A stretch of 64,000 nucleotides of DNA from Candidatus Thiothrix sulfatifontis (GTDB lineage: Bacteria > Pseudomonadota > Gammaproteobacteria > Thiotrichales > Thiotrichaceae): positions 2,790,001 through 2,854,000 of the forward strand of contig CP094685.1 in assembly GCA_022828425.1 (NCBI GenBank). Direction: 5' to 3'. Below are positions 29,249 to 30,061 of this stretch, piece after piece (within the stretch, counting starts at the first letter, position 1; every line of letters begins with the position of its first letter). A model generated the notes under the pieces. The model saw only the letters and a list, made by a program, of their open reading frames with translations, did not search any database and had not been told where the DNA came from. A program made the position numbers and the translations under genes.

Positions 29249-29825
29249 TCAACTGACCCCAACCGACATTATGCAGCGCTTACAACAACGCGGCGCAGCG
29301 ACGCATGATGTCGCGCTGGATGCGTGTCGCGAAGCCGGGGTGTTAGTACCGTTTGTGCGCATGGATAATGCTTGGCATTTGCTGTTTATTCGCCGCCCCA
29401 AGTCGGTGCGCGATTATCACAGTGGGCAAGTCGCTTTTGCTGGGGGCAAACGTGACCCTGAAGATGCTGACCTGACCGCTACCGCTTTGCGCGAAGCACA
29501 CGAAGAAATCGGTATTTTGCCGCACGATGTGGCCATTCTAGGGCAACTCAGCCCGCATCACAGCGTGAGCCGCTTTCAAATTGTGCCAACCGTTGCCCAC
29601 GTACCTTGGCCTTATGAACTGATACTTAGCCCGCAAGAAGTCGCCCGCGCGTTCACCATTCCGCTGCATTGGCTGGCACAACCGCAACACCACCAAATAG
29701 ATTATCGCCAGTTAGCTGACGTAACAGAGCCGATACCGATGGTGTACTTTCAAGAATACGATGGTGAAGTTTTATGGGGTGCGACAGCTAGAATCACGCT
29801 ATCATTGCTGGCTTGCTTGCAATAG
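29235..29825 (+). CDS. nudL: CoA pyrophosphatase-like Nudix hydrolase
   Basis: A 196-residue protein. The Nudix box is GGKRDPEDADLTATALREAH followed by EEIGI, matching GX5EX7REUXEEXGU. The preceding RRPKSVRDYHSGQVAFAGG is typical of the NudL/YeaB group that hydrolyses coenzyme A and related nucleotides. The start is in frame with the domain and lies within the small upstream reading frame, suggesting coupling. The gene symbol follows the closest group and is not proven. Confidence 0.85.
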   Translation: MNAIDQLTPTDIMQRLQQRGAATHDVALDACREAGVLVPFVRMDNAWHLLFIRRPKSVRDYHSGQVAFAGGKRDPEDADLTATALREAHEEIGILPHDVAILGQLSPHHSVSRFQIVPTVAHVPWPYELILSPQEVARAFTIPLHWLAQPQHHQIDYRQLADVTEPIPMVYFQEYDGEVLWGATARITLSLLACLQ

Positions 29826-29840
29826 GTATCTTAAAAGATA

Positions 29841-29961
29841 CGCCCACAGCAAGAACACGAGGAGAGAGAGGAGGAGGAGAGAAATCCCTCAATGTCCGTG
29901 CGCTGTGGGCGCTTGCAAATGATTCAGAAGCTAGGAGGAGGAGGAGAGAAACCCTGAATCA
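29841..29961 (+). ncRNA. Candidate small RNA with two GGA-rich hairpin loops
   Basis: Two hairpins lie side by side after the Nudix gene. The first has a perfect 10-bp stem (CGCCCACAGC 29841-29850 with GCTGTGGGCG 29902-29911). The second has a perfect 8-bp stem (TGATTCAG 29920-29927 with CTGAATCA 29954-29961). Both loops contain the identical 16-mer AGGAGGAGGAGAGAAA (29869-29884 and 29936-29951), while the stems are unrelated. Repeated GGA in exposed loops is the hallmark of CsrA/RsmA-binding small RNAs. A short GTATCT/AGATAC hairpin precedes. No clear promoter or terminator is seen, so it could be a processed 3' UTR. The 236 bp between the neighbouring convergent genes hold no supported protein gene. 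Confidence 0.5.
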
Positions 29962-30061
29962 CTCATGTTGCAATGCAATAAATAATAGGGATTTTTGCCT
30001 AAACGAACAAGCTATAATTTCTCAACGCACTGGTTAGGAAAACTAACCCACACCTTGGCAT

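Follow-up and report, generated by a model that had tools for sequence, protein, structure and literature searches.

Results

Two hairpins enclose the same 16-mer

The window analysed in this study, a stretch of 64,000 nucleotides of the Candidatus Thiothrix sulfatifontis genome (contig CP094685.1, positions 2,790,001 to 2,854,000), carries two perfect stems in which positions 29841-29850 pair with 29902-29911 (10 bp) and positions 29920-29927 pair with 29954-29961 (8 bp), both at 100% complementarity. Each stem encloses one copy of the 16-mer AGGAGGAGGAGAGAAA, which occurs exactly twice in the 3.69-Mb genome, both times at this locus. A sequence-only reading of this DNA had described 10- and 8-bp perfect stems, unrelated to each other, around one identical loop sequence, and these coordinates bear it out. 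The plus strand at 29826-29970 folds better than its shuffles (z -2.56), and its minimum-energy fold does not give the second stem the form drawn in that reading. Over the RNA the minus strand folds at -54.6 kcal/mol against -47.2 kcal/mol for the plus strand, with both hairpins formed and the loops open. Because the hairpin element is conserved across the genus, as described below, it is not a product of chance. The features of the locus are listed in Table 1. The only Rfam family found in the window is 6S RNA (RF00013, 27946-28125, plus strand, 77.4 bits).

Table 1. Features of the hairpin locus, in window coordinates
Feature	Position	Strand	Basis
Predicted small RNA, ~140-150 nt	29832..29975	-	Conserved block in 15/16 genus genomes; covariance model match
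Predicted small RNA ends	5' ~29975, 3' ~29832	-	
Conserved promoter block GTTGARAAATNGTAGCTTGT	30007..30026	-	15-ortholog alignment; pattern scan leads to Thiothrix records
-35-like hexamer TTGTTC	30005..30010	-	TTGTnn conserved, 17 nt before the -10
-10 hexamer TATTAT	29982..29987	-	-10-like hexamer retained among orthologs
Hairpin A, stem TGATTCAG/CTGAATCA, loop with UUUCUCUCCUCCUCCUCCUAGC	29920..29961	-	Covariation and unpaired loop
Hairpin B, terminator stem GCGCCCACAGC/GCTGTGGGCG, loop UUUCUCUCCUCCUCCUCUCUCU	29841..29911	-	Covariation and unpaired loop
U-rich tract TATCTTTT 3' of hairpin B, intrinsic terminator	29833..29840	-	Kept in every ortholog
Anti-Shine-Dalgarno loop of hairpin B (16-mer copy 1, minus-strand reading)	29869..29884	-	
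Anti-Shine-Dalgarno loop of hairpin A (16-mer copy 2, minus-strand reading)	29936..29951	-	
Palindrome GGTTAG-N5-CTAACC (TTA-N7-TAA, LysR-type box)	30032..30048	.	Conserved in genus orthologs

The conserved RNA is the minus strand

Comparison of orthologs reveals promoter-like and terminator-like anatomy on the minus strand, from which an RNA would be transcribed. In the orthologs TTGTnn is followed after about 17 nt by a -10-like hexamer and then by a conserved CATTGC, at constant spacing, and the U-rich tract holds 5-11 T per 12 nt in all 17 listed copies, such as TTTTCTTTTTTTT in L017. The minus strand is taken as the RNA because G-U pairs there exceed A-C pairs (25 vs 2 of the pair cells), as is expected of an RNA strand. 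Folding energy is also stronger on the minus strand in most copies, with L011, L015 and L101 as exceptions. A simple promoter and terminator scan of both strands of the locus found none, those of the minus strand included, so the strand assignment rests on conservation; TTGTTC itself is a weak match to the promoter consensus. Judged by promoter, terminator, G-U asymmetry and folding, the conserved RNA is thus the minus strand, on which the loops read UUUCUCUCCUCCUCCU with the anti-Shine-Dalgarno sequence CUCCUCC and lack GGA. The GGA loops that the sequence-only reading placed on the plus strand are replaced by CU-rich ones. Its alternative suggestion, of loops acting as anti-ribosome-binding-site decoys, came close, as the CU-rich loops are anti-Shine-Dalgarno in sequence.

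A predicted small RNA shared by Thiothrix and a sister genus

Of the 16 genomes of the genus, which named records such as T. caldifontis and Ca. T. singaporensis identify as Thiothrix, 15 proved to carry the RNA element in DNA searches; in the sixteenth, G003, neither DNA search nor covariance model detected a copy. The covariance model matches the window at 29825-29978 on the minus strand, finds the 15 genus copies at E ~1e-25 or better, and adds three further copies in three genomes of a sister genus. The sister-genus copies have wholly different stems (in L100, GACAGGCAAATC/GATTTATCTGTC and CCATTCGCAGCAC/GTGCTGCGGATGG), with CUCCUCC runs kept in both loops and the promoter GTAGCTTGT box and terminator retained. 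Going from family to order level left the set of 63 genomes unchanged, and at class level, where 369 genomes including this one were sampled, the other 368 gave no match at E<=0.001 under strict filters. None of 4227 Rfam families matched the RNA at E<=5, and we found no described small RNA of Thiothrix in the open-access literature.

The gene upstream of the RNA encodes a LysR regulator in 12 of the 15 genomes, an adjacency shared with the AbcR RNAs, and is a glnQ-like ABC gene in this genome, G013 and G014. On the other side, nudL does not adjoin the RNA in G001, G007, G011 and G015, and no nudL match was found in G012. Because the RNA is kept in 15 of 16 genomes while its neighbours change on both sides, it is an independent unit; nor is it a product released from the nudL 3' end, as had been proposed, because it is not adjacent to nudL in several species and has its own minus-strand promoter and terminator. 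The proposal that the locus encodes a small RNA is itself upheld by this conserved unit, its promoter-like and terminator-like anatomy and its covariation. We therefore regard it as a genuine family of small RNAs, new to the literature, that is confined in our sample to Thiothrix and its sister genus.

Stems covary around accessible CU-rich loops

The expectation that relatives would show covarying stems around constant loops was confirmed in the 15 Thiothrix genomes. MAFFT, run with no structural information, was used to align 14 distinct copies; over the 24 pairs of the structure, standard pairs make up 96.7% of pair cells and 15 of the 24 pairs have changes on both sides (6 of 9 in the helix of hairpin A, 9 of 11 in that of hairpin B). 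The covariation score is 0.440, compared with 0.228 for shuffles and at most 0.185 for slid controls. In this genome the unpaired probability is 0.90 for the loop of hairpin A and 0.75 for that of hairpin B, and across all 17 copies examined the probability that the CU runs are unpaired is 0.72-1.0, as in the class of anti-Shine-Dalgarno loop RNAs. Compensatory changes in the stems and retention of the CU loops agree with the earlier view that the stems are variable and that the loop is what matters. The loop sequence is not fixed, with about 2 to 9 CUC units per loop across species. In L007 (G009) the CUC repeat of the hairpin A loop has grown to ~9 units, which suggests strand slippage in the loop.

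A LysR-type palindrome precedes the promoter

In all genus copies measured, the centre of the palindrome precedes CATTGC by 64 or 65 nt, and the left half has one base changed in three copies. TTA-N7-TAA is the classic LysR-type box, as worded in a previous study (PMC7486931). Outside the RNA promoter the exact motif is all but absent from the genus, with one extra site in G006, and a broad regulon for the palindrome was rejected on this ground. The one upstream LysR regulator tested passed the GcvA NCBIfam cut-off (317 vs 288 bits); the window and the sampled stretches of this genome gave only weak matches to a LysR ortholog. The palindrome is likely to be an operator or activator site, and a GcvA-type LysR regulator probably controls the RNA.

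Candidate targets

When the genus was searched for GGAGGAGGA a short distance ahead of ATG and the genes were read, candidates emerged that encode an L-lactate permease, propionyl-CoA synthetase (prpE), 2-methylcitrate synthase (prpC), phosphoribulokinase and a substrate-binding protein. In family searches the permease, prpE and prpC names are the best or near-best family, with prpE and the permease scoring below the curated family cut-offs. The prp clusters of the 16 genomes were then read, with starts chosen by heuristic. The prpE Shine-Dalgarno sequence is complementary to the loops of its own species over 7-14 contiguous nt in 15 of 15 RNA-bearing genomes, and the matching sequences differ between species (TAGGAGGAGGAGA, GAGAGGAGGAG, GAGGAGGAGAGAAA); such conserved, extended complementarity to a target Shine-Dalgarno site is a feature of the anti-Shine-Dalgarno class. 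For prpC it spans 9-11 nt in seven genomes, while prpB, acnD, prpF and the flanking genes reach at most 7 nt, except prpB in G012 at 9 nt. For this genome the match is 11 nt long at both prpE and lldP, and the duplex energy is -23.2 kcal/mol for prpE and -22.7 kcal/mol for lldP. Among 324 genes sampled from the same genome, taken from the window and from 20 stretches of 20 kb each, no match is as long as 9 nt, and duplex energy has its 1st percentile at -17.8 kcal/mol. These figures are to be read with prpE and lldP as partly selected, both having been first noticed by motif search, with the related genomes as non-independent, and with the lldP genes, 94-100% alike, as nearly one observation. 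In G003, where the RNA was not detected, prpE still matches over 10 nt and prpC over only 4, so a long Shine-Dalgarno site may have other causes. The GGAGGAGGA-N-ATG site is missing altogether from G009 and G013, where prpE still matches over 11-12 nt.

The complementarity to prpE is exceptional at the sequence level, which makes prpE the strongest candidate target; prpC and the L-lactate permease gene are likely further targets in several species. The target list as a whole is a predicted one, and any anti-Shine-Dalgarno loop pairs to some degree with many genes. This genome carries the L-lactate permease gene, together with the region upstream of it, in two identical copies 27 kb apart at G000:C1:481729 and 509093 (L103, L104).

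Other CU-rich RNAs

A second CU-rich RNA was met at L106 ~1440-1600, near C1:1343650-1343800 of this genome, and also at L136, L137, L161, L162 and L163. There a sigma-54-like box (TTGGCAC-N5-TTGCAT) is joined by a leader containing GACTCCTCCTCCT and by a terminator with loop TTCCTCCTCC followed by T8; the gene downstream encodes a protein with a twin-arginine-like signal, and the Rfam narK model matches weakly, its 24.9 bits falling short of the cut-off. One possibility is an attenuated leader of a nitrate operon from which an anti-Shine-Dalgarno RNA is released as well. In one species, a terminator-like hairpin that again displays a CUCUCCUCCUCCUCUC loop is present in the 3' UTR of a phasin-like gene (L102 ~1485-1580; G001:C1:61227-61381, minus strand). 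A third supposed CU-loop RNA at L138, L151 and L152 was discarded, because its supposed terminator tail reads like the beginning of a coding sequence.

Discussion

The element described here probably encodes a trans-acting small RNA of Thiothrix that masks Shine-Dalgarno sites, a reading that includes the promoter, LysR control and prpE as a target. The minus-strand RNA would be made from its own sigma-70 type promoter and ended by hairpin B, and each hairpin would show a CUC-repeat loop, CUCCUCCUCC, that pairs with Shine-Dalgarno sequences of the AGGAGGAGG type and blocks translation initiation. A GcvA-like LysR-type regulator would probably act via the palindrome ~65 nt upstream of the start, and the targets would be carbon-use genes with unusually long GA-rich Shine-Dalgarno sites, prpE first, which we infer to be repressed rather than activated.

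The sequence-only reading had instead proposed a plus-strand CsrA/RsmA sponge, perhaps freed from the 3' end of nudL, that titrates CsrA through its GGA loops. The identical GGA-rich loops are indeed there on the plus strand, and the genome does have the csrA homologue for which that reading called (91.7 bits, PF02599). Nothing links CsrA to this RNA, however: the strand that bears the GGA motifs has neither promoter nor terminator conserved, whereas the G-U over A-C asymmetry, the conserved terminator and the promoter all belong to the minus strand, and nudL is not linked to the RNA in several species. The strand with the conserved promoter does not display the several GGA loops of CsrB/RsmY-type RNAs, the Rfam models of CsrB, RsmY and RsmZ gave no match at the locus (E<=5), and the long GGA runs of the sister genus are a mere complement of CU loops. 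The scan also found no plus-strand promoter or terminator, the same scan having missed those of the minus strand. Rejected on the strand evidence, the plus-strand sponge is now scarcely credible. A sponge or decoy on the minus strand, whose CU loops would bind another RNA or a poly-pyrimidine-binding protein rather than Shine-Dalgarno sites of mRNAs, could accommodate the variable CUC repeat number, which a protein ligand might tolerate; it is improbable in view of the exceptional complementarity to prpE, whose sequence differs by species yet always matches.

We give more weight, while still thinking it unlikely, to the explanation that the RNA exists and does act on mRNAs, but on targets other than those proposed, whose long Shine-Dalgarno sites would simply make for strong ribosome binding. 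The 10-nt prpE site of G003 and the absence of the searched motif from G009 and G013 fit this explanation; against it, sites this long are found in none of the sampled background genes. Masking of Shine-Dalgarno sites, with prpE foremost, is still the reading that we prefer. A broader form of it, in which a LysR-controlled small RNA carries a CUC-microsatellite seed on replaceable stems, loop slippage tunes the covering of ribosome-binding sites and other transcripts of the genus make up an anti-Shine-Dalgarno network, seems to us doubtful, a little more so than the explanation by other targets. If it were true, the sigma-54 nitrate-operon leader and the phasin 3' UTR hairpin of one species would share the seed. 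Thiothrix are sulfur-oxidizing filamentous bacteria, and their RNA is a clear, conserved element with a concrete candidate target in prpE; it is also a clean example of drifting stems and fixed loops.

Several known small RNAs resemble the Thiothrix RNA in part. As in the GcvA/GcvB pair of enteric bacteria, the small RNA gene adjoins a GcvA-type LysR regulator; unlike it, GcvB is transcribed divergently from gcvA and has a GU-rich seed, and the Rfam GcvB model gave no match at the locus. The AbcR RNAs of Alphaproteobacteria use a CU-rich single-stranded motif in the first hairpin, M1 CUCCCA, to pair with nutrient-uptake mRNAs, and in Agrobacterium AbcR1 and AbcR2 lie directly downstream of the LysR gene VtlR/LsrB (PMC5461406, PMC7486931), with VtlR activating the adjacent AbcR1 (PMC7486931). 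The likeness extends to the CU-rich unpaired motif and the adjacent LysR gene, the latter in the 12 genomes mentioned above and not in this one. However, the Thiothrix RNA differs in sequence and bacterial class, has two full CUC-repeat loops, did not match AbcR in the Rfam search (4227 families, E<=5), and carries the TTA-N7-TAA palindrome in place of the VtlR box, GCAT-N3-TG-N3-T. The sX13 RNA of Xanthomonas is highly structured, and its apical C-rich loops act on G-rich mRNA motifs near starts (PMC3771888); the Thiothrix RNA is likewise structured, with CU-rich loops predicted to pair with G-rich motifs, but sX13 has three C-rich-motif loops in 115 nt, lies downstream of polA and differs in sequence and structure. 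In Neisseria, NmsRA and NmsRB repress prpB, prpC and TCA-cycle mRNAs at the Shine-Dalgarno sequence through an anti-Shine-Dalgarno UC-rich loop and linker (PMC5362039), and both this type of loop and the prp genes, here as predicted targets, recur in Thiothrix. The NmsR RNAs are tandem siblings with three stem-loops and relA-linked control, whereas the Thiothrix RNA is a single copy with two hairpins and a LysR-type box, and a sequence relation between them was not found. Our comparisons thus do not place the RNA in the AbcR, NmsR or sX13 families, of which NmsR provides a precedent and AbcR and sX13 a resemblance. By its loops and their complementarity, the RNA probably belongs to the known functional class of anti-Shine-Dalgarno loop RNAs, and would be another independent case, after Neisseria and rhizobia, in which such loops control propionate or nutrient use.
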